A stretch of DNA of 25,383 nt from a virus. The DNA lies in IMG/VR virus record IMGVR_UViG_3300030090_006030, positions 1 to 25,383 of that record; one strand, 5' to 3'. Below the pieces are notes generated by a model that saw only the letters and a program-made list of their open reading frames with translations, was not told the origin of the DNA and made no database searches. Both the position numbers and the translations under genes were made by a program. This document shows, in pieces, positions 7,140-15,535 of the stretch (the stretch's first letter is position 1; every line of letters starts with the position of its first letter).

Positions 7140-7535
7140 ATGAAAGATAAAAGTATAGATTATAGTGAAATAAAAAAAGATAGGCTGCCTATTGTTTATG
7201 TTGTGCAAGAAATTGCAGGTACTAGAGAAGGTAGGCCTAAGATAAATATTATGGGAGCAGCTTATTATGGGAATATAAAATTTCTGTTACCTGAGCTTTC
7301 TCAGATTATTTTTTCTCCAGGTCCTTTAATCTTAAAGCTTAGAAAATCATTAAAAGATTTTAAATCAACAGATTATCTTTTATTAACTGGAGACCCTGCT
7401 ATAATAGGTGTAGCATGTTCTATTGTTTCAGAATTGACAAACGGAAAATACAACTTATTAAAATGGGACAAACAAGAAAGAAAATACTATCCAATAAATA
7501 TTAACTTATATGAAAGAGGAGAAATAGATGAGTAA
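7140..7535 (+). CDS. Conserved phage protein of unknown function, first gene of replication operon
   Basis: 131 aa, no domain I can name with confidence. It has an alternating strand/helix composition with a LLLTGDPAIIGVACSI segment (about residues 79-94), which looks like a strand followed by a small-residue turn and helix. It begins with a basic acidic-mixed N-terminus and has no signal peptide or membrane segment. The ATG lies only about 10 bases after the -10 box, so translation is probably leaderless or nearly so. It overlaps the next gene by 8 bases. Its place at the head of the replication operon suggests an early function in DNA metabolism or takeover; this is position-based inference. 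Confidence 0.85.
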   Translation: MKDKSIDYSEIKKDRLPIVYVVQEIAGTREGRPKINIMGAAYYGNIKFLLPELSQIIFSPGPLILKLRKSLKDFKSTDYLLLTGDPAIIGVACSIVSELTNGKYNLLKWDKQERKYYPININLYERGEIDE

Positions 7536-8094
7536 CGAAAACTTACAAAAACAATTTTTAGAAGATGCTCCACAAGGAGTGGACAATCTTGCTAATGTTC
7601 AAGATTTATCTGATTGTGTTGTTCGTCTTCAAAAACTTGAAGATGAAATAAAACAAGATGAAGAAAATCTAAAACTTAAAAAACAAAAAGCTGACAAGTT
7701 GTCAGGAGAAGTGATTCCAGAAATGATGGAATCAATGAGATTAAAAACAATGAAATTAGCAGATGGATCTGCTATAGAAGTAAAAGAGATTTACAGCGCC
7801 ACAATACCTGTAGCAAGAAAAGATGGCGCGTATAACTGGCTTCGAGAAAACGGTCTGGGTGATTTGATTAAAAATGAAATCACTGTTTCCTTTGGCCGTG
7901 GCGAAGATAACAAGGCGAGCGATTACGCAAACCTTGCATCAGAGCGTGGGTACCAACCGGTACAAAAACTTAAAGTGGAACCCATGACTCTTAAAGCATT
8001 GTTCAGAGAACGGTCTGAGAAAAAATTAGATCTTCCGGCTGAACATTTTAACCTGTTTAAGGGAAACAAAACAAAAATAACAAGGAGTAAGTAA
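7528..8094 (+). CDS. Coiled-coil protein paired with the SSB-like gene
   Basis: 188 aa. Residues 25-60 are a heptad-like charged coiled coil (LQKLEDEIKQDEENLKLKKQ). After this comes a mixed domain containing MKLADGSAIEVKE and ending with basic residues. No catalytic motif is seen. Start ATG overlaps the upstream gene; Shine-Dalgarno AGAGGAGA lies 5-8 bases upstream, a strong site that supports this start. It is one base from the SSB-like gene, and I recall this pair being common in marine phage replication operons. A role as accessory factor for DNA binding or recombination is inferred from position only. Confidence 0.85.
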   Translation: MSNENLQKQFLEDAPQGVDNLANVQDLSDCVVRLQKLEDEIKQDEENLKLKKQKADKLSGEVIPEMMESMRLKTMKLADGSAIEVKEIYSATIPVARKDGAYNWLRENGLGDLIKNEITVSFGRGEDNKASDYANLASERGYQPVQKLKVEPMTLKALFRERSEKKLDLPAEHFNLFKGNKTKITRSK

Positions 8095-8095
8095 C

Positions 8096-8866
8096 ATGAG
8101 TCAAGAGACAAGTGACATCGTAAAGAAACAAGGTGGTGCATTAGCGACTTTAGATTTTGTTAAAGATTCAGGAATGGGTCTTGAAAACATTGATAAAGGC
8201 GATCTTGCTTTACCTTTTCTGAAACTACTACAAAGTGGTTCAGATGAAACAAAGAAAAAACATGCAAAATACGTTGACGGCGCTGAAGCCGGCATGTTTT
8301 ATAATACAGTTACAAAAAAACTGTATGATGGAGAAAAAGGAATTGAAATAATTCCTGTATTCTACAAAATGACGTACCCAGAATGGGCTCCCTTTGAAAA
8401 AAGCGAAGGAAGACCCGTCCACCCGGATAGAGGTGCTGAGGTTCTTCAACAAACAACTCAAAATGATCGTAATAAAGATATGCTGAAAAATGGTAATGAA
8501 ATTATCAAAACAGCAAATCACTTTGTGATCATTAATGGTGATAGACCTGAAAAGGCTTTAATCACTATGAAATCTACTCAGTTAAAAGAGAGTAGAAGTT
8601 GGAATTCATTGATGGAAAATGAATTTGAAATTGATCCGAACACCAAAAAAGCAGTTGCGGCACCTATCTTTTCCAGAGTCTATAGACTTAAATCTGTAGA
8701 AAATGCTGGAAGTAACTTTAATTGGCATGGATATAAAATTTCATTGTCAAGAAAAGTAGATAATGCTGGCATCTACCAAATGGCCAAAGATTTTCATAAC
8801 TCTTTGAAAAAATCAGCTCAAAAGAAAGCTGAAAATTCTATAGAGGAAGGAAAGTCTAACTACTAA
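8096..8866 (+). CDS. Putative phage ssDNA-binding protein
   Basis: 256 aa, cytoplasmic, no signal or membrane segment. The N-terminal third contains the LALPFLKLLQSGS motif followed by KYVDGAEAGMFYNTVTKK, an arrangement seen in phage proteins annotated as recombination-associated or ssDNA-binding. The C-terminal tail is Lys/Glu-rich (KKSAQKKAENSIEEGK), compatible with a flexible protein-interaction tail. It follows an AGGAG Shine-Dalgarno with 7-base spacing. It sits between the coiled-coil protein and the primase. The function is a moderate-confidence guess from family style and location. The gene is followed by two tandem hairpins. Confidence 0.75.
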   Translation: MSQETSDIVKKQGGALATLDFVKDSGMGLENIDKGDLALPFLKLLQSGSDETKKKHAKYVDGAEAGMFYNTVTKKLYDGEKGIEIIPVFYKMTYPEWAPFEKSEGRPVHPDRGAEVLQQTTQNDRNKDMLKNGNEIIKTANHFVIINGDRPEKALITMKSTQLKESRSWNSLMENEFEIDPNTKKAVAAPIFSRVYRLKSVENAGSNFNWHGYKISLSRKVDNAGIYQMAKDFHNSLKKSAQKKAENSIEEGKSNY

Positions 8867-8949: not shown

Positions 8950-10518
8950 ATGGTAAATGAATTTATAAAACTTTTTTCTGGTTACGATGGAAACTTCGGT
9001 ATCGCAGATATGTCCAGTGCAAAACTGGACTCTGAAAAAAACAAATTAAAACCTGATTATGAATGGTCAGGCAGGCCTATTACTGACGAAGATTACAAAA
9101 ATCACATAGAAGGAAAAATATCTATAGGAATACAACCGTGTAAATTAGATAAAACCGCTCAATTTGGATGTATTGATGTTGATCCAAAAAATTATAAAGA
9201 ATTTAGGATAGAATCCTACCTAGCATTATTTCAACAATATAAACTGCCTTTGATACCCCTTTTATCTAAAAGTGGTGGTCTTCATTGTTATCTATTCCTT
9301 GAAGAACCTATTCCAACAATAGATTTAATTGAAGCTTTAAAATCTTTTTTACTTCCTCTTGGATTAGATCCTGATACAGAGATTTTTCCTAAGCAGAAAG
9401 AATTAAAGGAAGATGACAAAGGCGAAATTAAACCAGGTAACTTTATTAACCTACCTTATTACAATAATGGAGAGACAAATAGATATGCTGTAGATAAGAA
9501 TAATTCTAAACTATCCTTGCAGCAGTTTATAGAAGCAGCAAATCAATCAAAAATAAATAAAGAAGATTTACAAAAATTAGTCGACACGACATATAAAAAT
9601 ATTTTAGTAGGAACGAATGAAGAATTTAATGATGGTCCACCATGCCTAGCTCTTTGTTCTAAAAGAAAATTGGATGATGGCAGAGATCGTTTTATGTACA
9701 ACTATATGGTCTTTGCTAAGAAAAAGTATAAAGACAAATGGGTTGATCACATATCTAACGCAAATTATAGCTATTTAGAAACACCTTGGGACAGGTCAAA
9801 ATTAGATTCTAAAATTAAGGCTTGGTCTAAAGAAACAGCTGGACACACTTGTTATGAAGATCCAATACAAAGTAAATGTATGCGAGCTTTATGTTATTCA
9901 AGACCTTATGGCGTTAAGTCAGATAGCATTACATCTTTTCCAGAAATAAGTGATTTTCAAATTATTATGTACTCTGAACCGGAGTATAGATTTAATATAG
10001 CGCTGCCAGACAGTACTCAAGCAGAAGTGATAGCAACAAACAGAAAAATGATGACGAATCAAAAAGATTTATTAGAATTAATATGGGAACAAACAGGAAT
10101 TTACCACGAACCTTTGAAACCAAAAGACTTTAGAGCTAAACTAACGGAGCTTAGACAGAATTGTCAAACCATAACGCCACCTGAAGGAACAGGTATAGAT
10201 GATTTATTAAAAGAAGAATTATTTCAATATTGTGTTAATGGTCCACAAGCGCAAGAAAGACTTCAAATTAAAAACGGTTCTTGTTTTACAGAGGATGGAT
10301 TTCATTATTTCCAATGGAAATCTTTTCTAGCGCATCTTGGAAATGGTTGGAAGACTCCACATGAAAAGATAGCTCAGAAACTTAAAGAAAAATGTGATGT
10401 TAAGTTTGGTCACTATATAAAAATAGAAGGTAAAGCTGTTAGTGTATGTAAAGTTAAACAACTTCACGTTGATAAAATAGAATACAAACCAGTAGAAAAA
10501 GAAGGAAGCAATTACTAA
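8950..10518 (+). CDS. Archaeo-eukaryotic-type (AEP) primase
   Basis: 522 aa. The N-terminal half matches the AEP/TOTE-like primase-polymerase fold: motif I GCIDVDP with the metal-binding pair Asp76 and Asp78, motif II SGGLH (Ser108 to His112), and motif III around NFINLPYYN (164-172). After it lies a Cys-rich knuckle (HTCYEDPI, SKCMRALC, about residues 297-315) that may bind metal, then a helical C-terminal domain. It would make primers for the family A polymerase encoded downstream. The AAGGG Shine-Dalgarno 7 bases before the ATG supports the start. The stop overlaps the helicase start (TAATG). No fused helicase domain is present, unlike T7 gp4; helicases are separate genes here. Confidence 0.85.
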   Translation: MVNEFIKLFSGYDGNFGIADMSSAKLDSEKNKLKPDYEWSGRPITDEDYKNHIEGKISIGIQPCKLDKTAQFGCIDVDPKNYKEFRIESYLALFQQYKLPLIPLLSKSGGLHCYLFLEEPIPTIDLIEALKSFLLPLGLDPDTEIFPKQKELKEDDKGEIKPGNFINLPYYNNGETNRYAVDKNNSKLSLQQFIEAANQSKINKEDLQKLVDTTYKNILVGTNEEFNDGPPCLALCSKRKLDDGRDRFMYNYMVFAKKKYKDKWVDHISNANYSYLETPWDRSKLDSKIKAWSKETAGHTCYEDPIQSKCMRALCYSRPYGVKSDSITSFPEISDFQIIMYSEPEYRFNIALPDSTQAEVIATNRKMMTNQKDLLELIWEQTGIYHEPLKPKDFRAKLTELRQNCQTITPPEGTGIDDLLKEELFQYCVNGPQAQERLQIKNGSCFTEDGFHYFQWKSFLAHLGNGWKTPHEKIAQKLKEKCDVKFGHYIKIEGKAVSVCKVKQLHVDKIEYKPVEKEGSNY

Positions 10519-12160: not shown

Positions 12161-13997
12161 AGCGCAAACAGAATGGGCCAAGCCTGAAGAGTTTCCAGAT
12201 TTACGTCAAGCAGATACAATAGCAATAGACTTAGAAACATATGATCCAGATTTAAAATCAAAAGGATCAGGTTCAATTGTTGGTAGAGGTAAAGTTGTAG
12301 GTATAGCAATTGCAACAGATGGATACTCTGGATACTTCCCTTTTGATCACAAAGGTGGAGGAAATCTTGAAAAAAGTAAAGTAATTGAATGGTTTAAAGA
12401 TGTTTGTGCATGTCCTGCTGATAAAATTTTTCACAATGCAATGTACGACGTGTGTTGGATTAGAGCGATGGGGATAAAAATAAATGGAAACATTTATGAC
12501 ACCATGATTGCAGCATCATTAGTAAATGAAAATAGATTTAGATTTGATCTTGGCTCTTTAGGTTGGGATTATGTTGGTAGAGGTAAAAACGAAAAAGAAT
12601 TAGTAGAAGCAGCAAATGAATGGGGAGTTGATCCCAAAGCTGACATGTGGATGTTACCATCAATGTATGTTGGTAATTATGCTGAACGAGATGCGGAACT
12701 TACTTTAGATTTATGGAAAGTCATGCAGAAAGAAATAAGCAACCAGGATCTAGGGTCTATTTTTGAATTAGAAACAGATTTATTTCCGTGTTTAGTTGAT
12801 ATGAAATTTAAAGGGGTTCGTGTCGATACCGAATCCGCTCATAAACTGAAACAACAATTATGTACAGAAGAAAAGAAGTTATTATCAGAAGTAACCAAAG
12901 AGACAGGAATAGAATGTCAAATATGGGCAGCAAGATCAATTGCCAAAGTTTTTGACAAATTAAAACTGTCTTATGACCGCACTGAAAAGACAAAGTCTCC
13001 TTCATTTACAAAAAATTTTCTTTCTGAACATAATCATCCTTTAGTTAAGAAAATAGCAAAAGCTAGAGAAATAAACAAGGCCCATACCACATTTATTGAC
13101 ACAATTATTAGATATGAACATAAAGGTAGAATTCATGCGGATATTAATCAAATAAGATCTGACCAAGGTGGTACAGTTACCGGTAGATTTTCATATTCTA
13201 ATCCTAATTTACAACAAATTCCTGCTCGTAATAAGGACTTAGGTCCTTTGATTCGATCCCTTTTCATACCAGAATCAGGTTGCGAGTGGGGATGCTTTGA
13301 CTACAGTCAACAAGAACCTAGACTTGTAGTTCACTATGCATCCTTAGATCAAGATACAAGTGTGTTTGGAGTAAAAGATGCTTACGAAGAAAATGTTAAA
13401 TCAGATTTTCATCAAACCGTAGCGGACATGGCTCAAATACCTAGAACACAAGCTAAGACAATTAACCTAGGATTGTTCTATGGAATGGGTAAAGGTAAAC
13501 TTCAAGCTGAGCTTGGTGTATCAAAAGAGAAAGCAGAAGAACTATTTCAACAATACCATTCTAGAGTTCCCTTTGTTAAAAGATTAATGAACTCTGTATC
13601 TAATAGAGCACAAAAAAGTGGACAGATAAGAACTTTACTAGGCAGACTATGCAGGTTTCATCTATGGGAACCAAATTTATTTGGCATGCACAAAGCACTT
13701 CCGCATGAAGAAGCACTTAGAGAACATGGTCCAGGAATAAGAAGAGCATATACTTATAAAGCTTTAAATAAATTAATCCAAGGTTCAGCTGCTGACATGA
13801 CAAAGAAAGCTATGTTAGATTTATACAAGGAAGGAATTGTTCCTCATATTCAAATTCATGATGAACTAGACATTTCTGTAGAATCTGATAATCAAGCAAA
13901 AAAAATTATTGAGATTATGGAGAATGCTGTTAAACTAGAAATCCCTAACAAAGTTGATTATGAATTTGGCAAAAATTGGGGAGATATTTATGGGTAA
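12153..13997 (+). CDS. polA: Family A DNA polymerase with 3'-5' exonuclease
   Basis: 614 aa, the usual size for a phage Pol I lacking the 5' nuclease. Exonuclease motifs: Exo I AIDLETYDP (Asp26, Glu28), Exo II FHNAMYDVCW, Exo III YAERDAELT, all intact, so proofreading is expected. Polymerase motifs: A FDYSQQEPRL (catalytic Asp383), B RTQAKTINLGLFYGM, C IQIHDELDI with HDE. Two departures from E. coli Pol I: motif A has Gln and Pro where Ile709 and Leu711 stand, and Leu439 replaces Phe762. Leu at this position is described as common in marine virioplankton polymerases. It is the replicative polymerase of this phage, working with the encoded primase and helicases. Confidence 0.95.
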   Translation: MFKAQTEWAKPEEFPDLRQADTIAIDLETYDPDLKSKGSGSIVGRGKVVGIAIATDGYSGYFPFDHKGGGNLEKSKVIEWFKDVCACPADKIFHNAMYDVCWIRAMGIKINGNIYDTMIAASLVNENRFRFDLGSLGWDYVGRGKNEKELVEAANEWGVDPKADMWMLPSMYVGNYAERDAELTLDLWKVMQKEISNQDLGSIFELETDLFPCLVDMKFKGVRVDTESAHKLKQQLCTEEKKLLSEVTKETGIECQIWAARSIAKVFDKLKLSYDRTEKTKSPSFTKNFLSEHNHPLVKKIAKAREINKAHTTFIDTIIRYEHKGRIHADINQIRSDQGGTVTGRFSYSNPNLQQIPARNKDLGPLIRSLFIPESGCEWGCFDYSQQEPRLVVHYASLDQDTSVFGVKDAYEENVKSDFHQTVADMAQIPRTQAKTINLGLFYGMGKGKLQAELGVSKEKAEELFQQYHSRVPFVKRLMNSVSNRAQKSGQIRTLLGRLCRFHLWEPNLFGMHKALPHEEALREHGPGIRRAYTYKALNKLIQGSAADMTKKAMLDLYKEGIVPHIQIHDELDISVESDNQAKKIIEIMENAVKLEIPNKVDYEFGKNWGDIYG

Positions 13998-14002
13998 TTA
14001 TT

Positions 14003-14641
14003 ATGGCTTATTTAAACGCAAATATTCCTGCAACTTATGCACAGATAAGAAGAGAATATTTATATGATCTCAAAGAACACCATGGAGAAGTTGAAGACTG
14101 TATTATCTTTGGCATGGCATCAATTACAGGGCGTCCTATACTCTTTCATGCAATTATGGAAAACGGTGCTGTCTTCTATCGTCTCCCAATATCTGCCTTC
14201 ATTCAAAGAGGCTTTAAACCGCAAGAAGTTCCTAAATATAGACTTGATGAGCTGGAGCTTTGGAATTGTTTCAGTTATTATCCTAATGTTATTTCTTTCG
14301 ATCTCTTAGACGGAACAAGAGGTAAATACTTCGGAAAAGACAAGAAAACACACTCAGGATTATATCTTTTTACAGTTGACTGGGCGCACCCAGAGAGTAA
14401 TATAGTAGATACCGATCATTCGGAAATTCCGCACGAACACAAAATGGCCTTAGATGATGGTAATTATGCGGCTCAGCCAAACAATCGTATAATCTGGAAC
14501 ATTCCTTCTTTTACAGTTAAGGATGAAATTCCTGACTGGAAAGTTCAAACAAGTGAATGGAACGTAGAAGATACGGGTAAGTGGAAAACAGAAGATACTG
14601 ATAAGTTTTTCTATAAAATAGAGGAGACAAAAAATGATTAA
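14003..14641 (+). CDS. Conserved marine-phage protein of unknown function
   Basis: 212 aa. An upstream in-frame ATG exists at 13976 inside the polymerase gene, but MAYLNANIPATYAQI starting at 14003 is the form I recall for this family, and it starts 6 bases after the polymerase stop. The protein is acidic and rich in aromatic residues, with conserved-looking stretches RREYLYDLKEHHGEVEDCII, LWNCFSYYP and LFTVDWAHPESN. It has no signal peptide or transmembrane segment. No enzymatic motif is recognised. It closes the replication operon and overlaps the next 25-codon gene (ATG inside its last codons). Confidence 0.85.
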   Translation: MAYLNANIPATYAQIRREYLYDLKEHHGEVEDCIIFGMASITGRPILFHAIMENGAVFYRLPISAFIQRGFKPQEVPKYRLDELELWNCFSYYPNVISFDLLDGTRGKYFGKDKKTHSGLYLFTVDWAHPESNIVDTDHSEIPHEHKMALDDGNYAAQPNNRIIWNIPSFTVKDEIPDWKVQTSEWNVEDTGKWKTEDTDKFFYKIEETKND

Positions 14642-14711
14642 AAAAATTAAAGATGCTTTTAAAAAAGCAACCAACTGGATAGTTGGACAATATAATAAAA
14701 TTATTAAATAA
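14634..14711 (+). CDS. 25-aa cationic amphipathic peptide
   Basis: A 25-codon ORF preceded by GAGGAGA (14620s), a strong Shine-Dalgarno, and overlapping the end of the upstream gene by 8 bases. The peptide starts MIKKIKDAFKK and continues through NWIVGQYNKIIK; 8 of 25 residues are Lys, no more than one is acidic, and Ile/Phe/Trp/Val fall on one face of a helix. It looks like a membrane-surface-active helix. Lysis timing, membrane depolarisation or host inhibition are possible. The good ribosome site and position between two genes argue against chance. Function is unknown. Confidence 0.6.
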   Translation: MIKKIKDAFKKATNWIVGQYNKIIK

Positions 14712-14720
14712 GGAAAACCA

Positions 14721-14876
14721 ATGACATATAAATGTAAAGACTGTCATTGTAAGTGCCATTGCAATGAAGAATTACATGCTGACGTTTATGGAGTGTGTAC
14801 ATGTGATAACTGTAGCTGTGGTAGAAAAAAAGAGGAAGTTGTAGACGACACTCAAGAATGTGACGTATGTCAATAG
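14721..14876 (+). CDS. Metallothionein-like cysteine-rich protein
   Basis: A 51-aa protein with 11 Cys (over a fifth of residues) and 3 His. The spacing is C5-x2-C8-x-C10-x-C12-x-C14, then C26-x-C28-x2-C31-x-C33, then C47-x2-C50. Repeated C-x-C and C-x2-C clusters are the hallmark of metallothioneins and thiolate metal clusters; no ordinary zinc ribbon has this density. His9 and His13 interleave the first cluster, as in bacterial metallothioneins. AAGGAAAA 6 bases before the ATG is a good Shine-Dalgarno. There is no signal peptide, so it should be cytoplasmic. It overlaps no gene upstream and ends 8 bases before the exported-protein start. A small redox or regulatory zinc protein is the alternative. 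Confidence 0.75.
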   Translation: MTYKCKDCHCKCHCNEELHADVYGVCTCDNCSCGRKKEEVVDDTQECDVCQ

Positions 14877-14884
14877 GAGACCGC

Positions 14885-15535
14885 GTGAATTATAAATTTA
14901 CATTAATATTATTTATATTAATAGCATTGCTAACGGTTTTTGGTGCACCAATAGTGCAAGGAGCAAACAATCAAACAAACGTTAGTGGTTCAAACACAAG
15001 TATTGAAGGTGGGTATACTGGAGGAGCTACAACCTACGAATCAGGTAGCTCATCAAGTACAACTACAAATAGCACTAGTAATAGTAATATAAGATCTGCA
15101 CCCCCAACATCTAGTGCACCTTCTTATAACTCTATGACACAAGATGTTTGTGCAGTTGGAGCTTCTGTGGGAGTTCAAACTTTTGGTGTTGGAGTGTCTG
15201 GTGGAAAACATTTTATAGATAAAAATTGTGAAAGATTAAAACTAGCAAGAATTTTAAATGATTTTGGCATGAAAGTGGCAGCTGTGGCAATATTATGTCA
15301 AGATGAGCGTGTATTTGAATCAATGATACAAGCCGGCACCCCGTGCCCTATTGATGGAAAAATAGGTAAAGATGCATTAGTTCTTTGGAATAAATATCAA
15401 TTTGAAAGACCTGATTTCTCGGCATACGTGAAACGTATGAAAAAACGTGAAAAGATTGATGGTGTTCCTAAAGCAAATCCTGTAAAAGCTAAAGATAAAG
15501 TAAAAATAAAAAAAATAAAGAAAAATAAACAATGA
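14885..15535 (+). CDS. Exported Ser/Thr/Gly-rich protein with conserved Cys domain
   Basis: 216 aa from the GTG at 14885, chosen over the ATG at 14867 because AGGAG lies 5 bases before the GTG and because it leaves a clean signal peptide (NYKFTLILFILIALLTVFG, likely cleavage after QGA). The mature part begins with a low-complexity Ser/Thr/Asn/Gly linker (about 30-85), then a domain with four or five Cys (QDVCAVGAS, DKNCERLKLARILNDFG, AILCQDERVFE, AGTPCPIDGKIG) and a very basic Lys-rich tail. I recall similar proteins in pelagiphage-type genomes; no function is known. It probably acts in the periplasm or outer envelope, or is mounted on the virion. Confidence 0.85.
   Translation: MNYKFTLILFILIALLTVFGAPIVQGANNQTNVSGSNTSIEGGYTGGATTYESGSSSSTTTNSTSNSNIRSAPPTSSAPSYNSMTQDVCAVGASVGVQTFGVGVSGGKHFIDKNCERLKLARILNDFGMKVAAVAILCQDERVFESMIQAGTPCPIDGKIGKDALVLWNKYQFERPDFSAYVKRMKKREKIDGVPKANPVKAKDKVKIKKIKKNKQ

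Follow-up and report, generated by a model that had tools for sequence, protein, structure and literature searches.

A viral DNA of 25,383 nucleotides, hereafter the window, encodes at positions 14721–14876 (plus strand) a Cys-rich protein of 51 amino acids, MTYKCKDCHCKCHCNEELHADVYGVCTCDNCSCGRKKEEVVDDTQECDVCQ, that belongs to a virus-only, metallothionein-like family and ends in an arm resembling the C-terminus of the class I ribonucleotide reductase of SAR11 bacteria. The explanation that we favor, with a probability of roughly 40%, is a two-module metal-thiolate protein in which the arm acts on the host reductase or on a host thioredoxin or glutaredoxin. If the core of the protein binds several zinc ions, this would be the first family of metallothionein-like proteins to be restricted to phages, as far as could be found.

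The window is a 25.4-kb fragment that encodes a DNA polymerase A, an AEP-TOTE-type primase, helicases, an M15 peptidase, and a small terminase, and among named phages it is closest at the DNA level to those of SAR11 (Pelagibacter), such as HTVC023P and HTVC027P. The primase, with its AEP-TOTE domain, and a run of three adjacent genes akin to gp32–gp34 of phage Pam3 lie at 8950–10518 and 7140–8866. As the first-pass annotation had stated, the 51-residue product contains 11 Cys (residues 5, 8, 10, 12, 14, 26, 28, 31, 33, 47, and 50) and three His (residues 9, 13, and 19), and its ATG is preceded at a distance of 6 nt by a good Shine-Dalgarno sequence, AAGGA (14710–14714, plus strand). Its Cys content of 22% is by far the highest among the open reading frames (ORFs) of the window (runner-up 13%), and 200 first-order Markov shuffles of the window yielded no ORF of 60 amino acids or fewer with 11 Cys. 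Four records in the annotated phage collection have the family (Gjalp, Eyrgjafa, HTVC041P, and an uncultured Chosvirus), and in the last two the gene is without annotation. This omission and the short length are what a spurious or decaying ORF would predict, but that reading has practically no probability left, being already refuted by the conservation data: a median pairwise dN/dS of 0.18 (527 pairs with dS <1), which indicates purifying selection and agrees with the value below 1 anticipated for related phages, together with the ribosome-binding site, a conserved place, and hundreds of relatives. The ORF is a real gene.

It had been described as lying between two real genes. A large gene upstream and a gene downstream are indeed present, but the immediate upstream neighbor is an ORF for a 25-residue, amphipathic-looking peptide (MIKKIKDAFKKATNWIVGQYNKIIK; 14634–14711, plus strand), which overlaps the end of the large gene. 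The latter (14003–14641, plus strand; alternative starts at 13976 and 14003) is the phrog_3704 gene, used here as a syntenic anchor. Its labels conflict: PHROGs has "ferredoxin" and GenBank "phosphoribosylaminoimidazole synthetase (PurM)" (the same gene lies at L038:6001–6645 and L113:2504–3151), and neither is backed by any Pfam match. The downstream gene (14885–15535, plus strand), weakly similar to New_glue and phrog_20531, is listed as starting at ATG 14867; its true start is probably GTG 14885, which lies just past the Cys-rich gene and is preceded by AGGAG, and in that case the two genes do not overlap. Amphipathic-looking ORFs of 19–90 amino acids (MIKK(W)I...) also lie directly upstream of the family gene in many polymerase-side relatives (L049, L055, L058, L061, L064, and L084). 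Some of these are fused to a zinc-knuckle-like end (CNTHSRFKKSCPIC, with a CxxH..CPxC knuckle), and gp12 of HTVC027P combines a finger and an amphipathic tail in one protein.

The metal-ligand core occupies codons 5–33 (14733–14819, plus strand) and was delimited from 135 unique HMM homologues and a 125-row alignment. It is described by the 29-residue pattern CxxCx(C/H)xCHCx4HxDxYGxCxCxxCxC, which holds 11 potential metal ligands, represented in the window by C5, C8, C10 (the C/H position), C12, H13, C14, H19, C26, C28, C31, and C33. Among the 135 homologues, the eight core Cys are invariant save for a single change to Ala (in L171), position 10 is Cys in 58 and His in 77 with nothing else allowed, H13 is kept in all, and H19 is kept in all but one, where it is replaced by Cys. 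C33 is exchanged for His in five of the 125 alignment rows, a set picked by a pattern permitting only Cys or His at that position. Such exchange between Cys and His is what metal ligands allow. The smallest members, such as L174 (MKCKKCNHDCHCVEDLHADEYGVCTCDKCECK), are 32 residues long and consist of the core alone. The seeds of the scans contain Cys and so bias them toward conserved Cys, a bias from which the choice of loci by the phrog_3704 anchor is free; the anchored search also gave variants of reduced length and ligand number that bear the same arm (MTERWCKKCNKMCHCPNAEGECTNCDC...). The conservation of the Cys positions in relatives disposes of one of the objections that the first-pass annotation had raised against itself. 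Since the 11 ligands are near-invariant, nearly all exceptions are swaps between Cys and His, and core-only members of 32 residues exist, binding of several metal ions is suggested, and we consider it very probable on sequence grounds that the core binds more than one. Three non-ligand positions are about as conserved as the ligands, with D21 invariant and Y23 and G24 near-invariant. AlphaFold2 models from two runs, of low confidence (pLDDT 61–62), contain no helix and only strands of one to two residues, and in these low-confidence models the short strands flank D21, Y23, and G24.

Small size, abundant Cys (11 in 51 amino acids), and conserved CxC and CxxC ligands are the sequence features of a functional metallothionein, and as far as the sequence tells the protein is metallothionein-like in function while standing outside the bacterial metallothionein family. 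Scans of the protein and 19 relatives against Pfam, PHROGs, and NCBIfam matched no family, so it is not a member of any known metallothionein family. The profile search that had been proposed for this purpose was negative: PF02069 (Metallothio_Pro; cut-off 33 bits) matched neither the protein nor the 19 relatives nor the whole record at E-values up to 10, and one control genome, Synechococcus elongatus, scored over the cut-off. SmtA is a Zn4Cys9His2 protein. Like SmtA/BmtA (PF02069), the phage proteins are small, with about nine Cys and two His as potential ligands, a CxCxxCxC motif, and Tyr and Gly among the conserved non-ligands, but the order and spacing of the ligands differ, and the phage family is found only in viruses and bears a reductase-like arm. 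When the family alignment was compared by hhalign with SmtA, only 14 columns covering the CxCxxCxC motif were aligned (probability 1.8%), and no profile similarity extended beyond that motif. No published phage metallothionein was found in the incomplete set of literature consulted, and prior reports may exist. A match to a radical-SAM-modified RiPP (NCBIfam, E = 3.2) was dropped as weak; no radical SAM gene was seen in the neighborhoods examined. What stands of the earlier label "metallothionein-like" is thus a phage-encoded protein with the pattern of a metal-thiolate cluster; the label finds no family match and leaves the arm unaccounted for.

Behind the core, a variable linker that includes an acidic stretch (codons 34–45; 14820–14855, plus strand) leads to the arm, which in the window reads ECDVCQ (14856–14873, plus strand) and in most of the family ECESCQ or ECLSCQ. 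Its two Cys, residues 47 and 50, are the last of the protein and are separable from the core. Among 160 unique proteins, 72 end in CxxC plus one residue (almost always ECxxCQ), 33 in a sequence like S(Y/F)ENEVKYD, and 11 in KDFWK, the rest having another end or none. The arm is therefore a property of about half of the family, the window's member included, and its two Cys are nearly always both present or both absent. It is missing from all T4-like members and from all but one of the capsid-side members. As about half of the family does without it, the core must have a role of its own, and the 18 different DNA spellings of ECESCQ mean that selection acts on the peptide. Across 2.17 Mb of phage loci, only the Cys-rich family and other small Cys/His-rich proteins were found to carry the arm, and those checked lie in the same place.

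These features bear on the simplest alternative, a plain viral metallothionein in which the core would buffer, store, or detoxify zinc, copper, or cadmium inside an infected cell or supply zinc to phage zinc proteins, and the CxxC would be an extra metal pair. The density of 11 ligands in 29 residues, the CxC motifs, the swaps between Cys and His, and the 32-residue members all agree with it, and the window encodes several further Cys-rich, zinc-finger-like ORFs. In 297 SAR11 genomes sampled, no bacterial metallothionein scored over the cut-off, so that the phage would add what the host seems to lack. We nevertheless regard it as rather doubtful. The nearly all-or-none occurrence of the arm, its almost constant Gln end, its match to the host tail, and its presence on an unrelated treble-clef-like finger are all left unexplained, and the invariance of D21, Y23, and G24, which is close to that of the ligands, goes beyond the needs of a pure buffer. 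The metal-buffering role first suggested for the protein is compatible with the thiolate-cluster pattern, but pure buffering does not explain a separable arm.

The likeness to a reductase tail was put to the test in the host genomes. All 15 SAR11 class I reductase alpha subunits examined end in YEECLSCQ. In 58 SAR11 genomes, the pattern EC(L/F)(S-like)CQ followed by a stop gave 28 matches, one per genome, every one of them the C-terminus of a class I reductase, and no other protein ending in ECLSCQ was found in these 58 genomes. The EECLSCQ-COOH of four relatives of the window's protein (L015, L019, L021, and L025) is letter for letter the end of SAR11 NrdA. The window's own arm is a partial match only, having the E, C, C, and Q of the host tail but D and V in place of its L and S. 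As in NrdA, the CxxC pair stands at the extreme C-terminus behind a linker; the phage arm differs in being detached from any reductase, and the remainder of the protein, which stands alone at 51 amino acids with no attached reductase catalytic domain, is unrelated to NrdA. Among related phage records, many of which are fragments, no recognizable reductase alpha subunit (PF02867) was seen in 50 and no glutaredoxin in 42, so that host enzymes would be used. The arm was also considered as a fragment of a phage-encoded reductase; this idea was rejected, as the 50 records contain none and the reductases that other SAR11 phages (HTVC019P and relatives) encode for themselves end in EADCLACEG or EADCLSCEG. 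In those reductase-bearing phages, the Cys-rich family has no match. A resemblance of the ends of arm-less members to the reductase beta subunit NrdB was likewise tested and rejected. About half of the sampled SAR11 genomes have class I NrdA/NrdB, with the tail YEECLSCQ, and the others have a class II NrdJ that is about 1200 amino acids long and ends in ATTGCS (L392–L411 and L442–L451).

Taken together, these observations point to the two-module metal-thiolate protein, which may work as follows. The core, with its eight near-invariant Cys, one Cys-or-His position, and two His, would wrap several divalent metal ions, most likely three to four zinc, in a metallothionein-like cluster built round a short H-x-D-x-Y-G hairpin, as ligand conservation and the swaps between Cys and His suggest. 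In the window's branch of the family, a flexible linker would present the arm, EC-x2-CQ, the function of which is suggested by its resemblance to the redox-active Cys pair of the host reductase. This arm may dock where the tail of the reductase itself docks, on host thioredoxin or glutaredoxin and perhaps on the reductase, and pass thiol electrons. The metal cluster would serve as a folded scaffold for the arm, much as NrdJb does in class II reductases. In this way, host dNTP synthesis or the thiol/zinc pool of the cell would be kept running to the benefit of phage replication. In arm-less relatives, zinc would be bound and buffered by the core alone.

The class II reductase NrdJ has a zinc-binding, Cys-rich, electron-carrying domain whose redox Cys pair lies close to the extreme C-terminus, and in some bacteria this domain is encoded by a separate gene, NrdJb (PMC5704485). 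By analogy, and without homology, NrdJb is a precedent for a reductase arm that stands alone. The NrdJ domain differs from the phage protein in its length of 150–220 amino acids and in having one zinc and six Cys without a CxC cluster, and no similarity between the two was seen. The class II pattern CPxCG...C..C..CG...C is not matched by the phage protein, the spacing differing in a by-eye comparison with the ends of SAR11 NrdJ (CPECGSFTLVRNGTCLKCDTCGATTGCS).

That the arm engages host thioredoxin, glutaredoxin, or reductase is proposed tentatively. The arm is only six residues long, most of the family has ECESCQ, the window has ECDVCQ, and many members are arm-less. With so short a peptide and so partial a match, a simple CxxC at the C-terminus may have arisen by convergence. 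The most specific form of the proposal, a stand-alone phage metal-thiolate protein whose arm copies the host class I reductase tail and works in trans on reductase or redoxin, as a minimal, virus-only "reductase arm" replacing a whole reductase gene, is on the doubtful side. Should the arm work as a reductase tail, it would be a novel means by which a phage that encodes no reductase draws on host dNTP synthesis, and a natural minimal system for studying how a flexible tail passes electrons. The same likeness to the host tail, and the seeming lack of a reductase in the related phages, would also suit an inhibitory decoy, in which the arm competes with the reductase tail for thioredoxin or glutaredoxin or blocks the active site, host dNTP synthesis stops, and the phage recycles host nucleotides. 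This is very unlikely, as phages without a reductase need host dNTPs, and other SAR11 phages bring a reductase of their own, which suggests that dNTPs are limiting.

The position of the gene brings in a further alternative. In loci chosen by the phrog_3704 gene, and thus independently of the Cys-rich gene, the family lies downstream of the anchor in 44 of 61 window-like loci, so that the same position in related phages, which the first-pass annotation had asked about, is largely kept; the count is 0 of 67 in loci of the HTVC023P-like clade. About one fifth of the latter have instead a treble-clef-like finger, MKKCKQC...FCSQDC...SDECLSCQ, with the same kind of arm. This small protein (MKKCKQCDKEFQPKDELDQFCSQDCKEEALAELDSGSDECLSCQ), which is weakly NinG-like (E = 0.003) and has a reductase-like C-terminus, occurs in the same place in L245, L248, L250, L253, L257, L261, L287, and L312. 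Small phage zinc fingers (Lar-like, FCS/treble-clef-like, and zinc ribbon) resemble the family in their place in sister phages and, in some cases, in their arm, but they have four to six ligands, are expected to bind one zinc, and lack CxCxCHC and CxCxxCxC. The seeming interchangeability of these proteins would be explained if the family were a compact poly-zinc adaptor, with structural metals, a surface of K6, D21, Y23, and G24 that binds a host protein or nucleic acid and redirects the host, and C-termini that act as targeting motifs. The invariance of D21, Y23, and G24 would also fit, as would the only hit of a PDB profile search, a weak hairpin match (E = 0.25) to 8q5b, a small zinc finger protein of the CPxCG type. 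This alternative is unlikely, however, since the CxxCxCxCHC spacing and the 11 ligands exceed a finger for one or two zinc ions, a hydrophobic core is almost absent, and neither the protein nor its 19 relatives match any zinc-finger family in Pfam, including in the test for zinc ribbon and Lar-like proteins.

There are two further genomic settings. In SAR11 autographiviruses, the family gene immediately precedes the major capsid gene, and a third setting is formed by T4-like contigs with UvsX-like and DnaB-like genes, which were assigned by inspection. In both, the next gene upstream often encodes a phrog_7595 protein. This DUF5754-like protein of 90–94 amino acids forms a recurrent pair with the family across unrelated phages (L041:4691–4963; L097:5714–5998; L124–L126, L135, L153, L154, and L192–L194).

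With few exceptions, the distinct sequences of the family, at least 135 in number, come from IMG/VR, where the protein as query led to 36 loci, an alignment query to 284 matches (80 kept), and a divergent alignment to at least 380. The family is thus common among marine relatives of SAR11 phages, and the hosts of the viruses that bear it are SAR11, the most abundant bacterium of the ocean, wherever they are known. A search of plasmids found no member, and a search of about 85,000 bacterial and archaeal genomes in GTDB found none except on one contig of a SAR11 single-cell genome. That contig also bears genes resembling those for a tail fiber, a lysis protein, and a large terminase, and therefore looks like a phage. 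Its presence in this genome ties the family directly to SAR11 cells; the cell has a class I reductase, yet the phage copy is arm-less, which speaks against the proposed action of the arm. A candidate function can now be offered for hypothetical or missed genes of cultured SAR11 phages, namely gp42 of Gjalp, gp29 of Eyrgjafa, and the gene of HTVC041P. In HTVC023P, a further unannotated Cys-rich frame (CFECHHDCHCDKICPKCSCYTC; L038:6643–6750) lies just behind gp44 and lacks an obvious start codon; it may start inside gp44 or arise by frameshifting.
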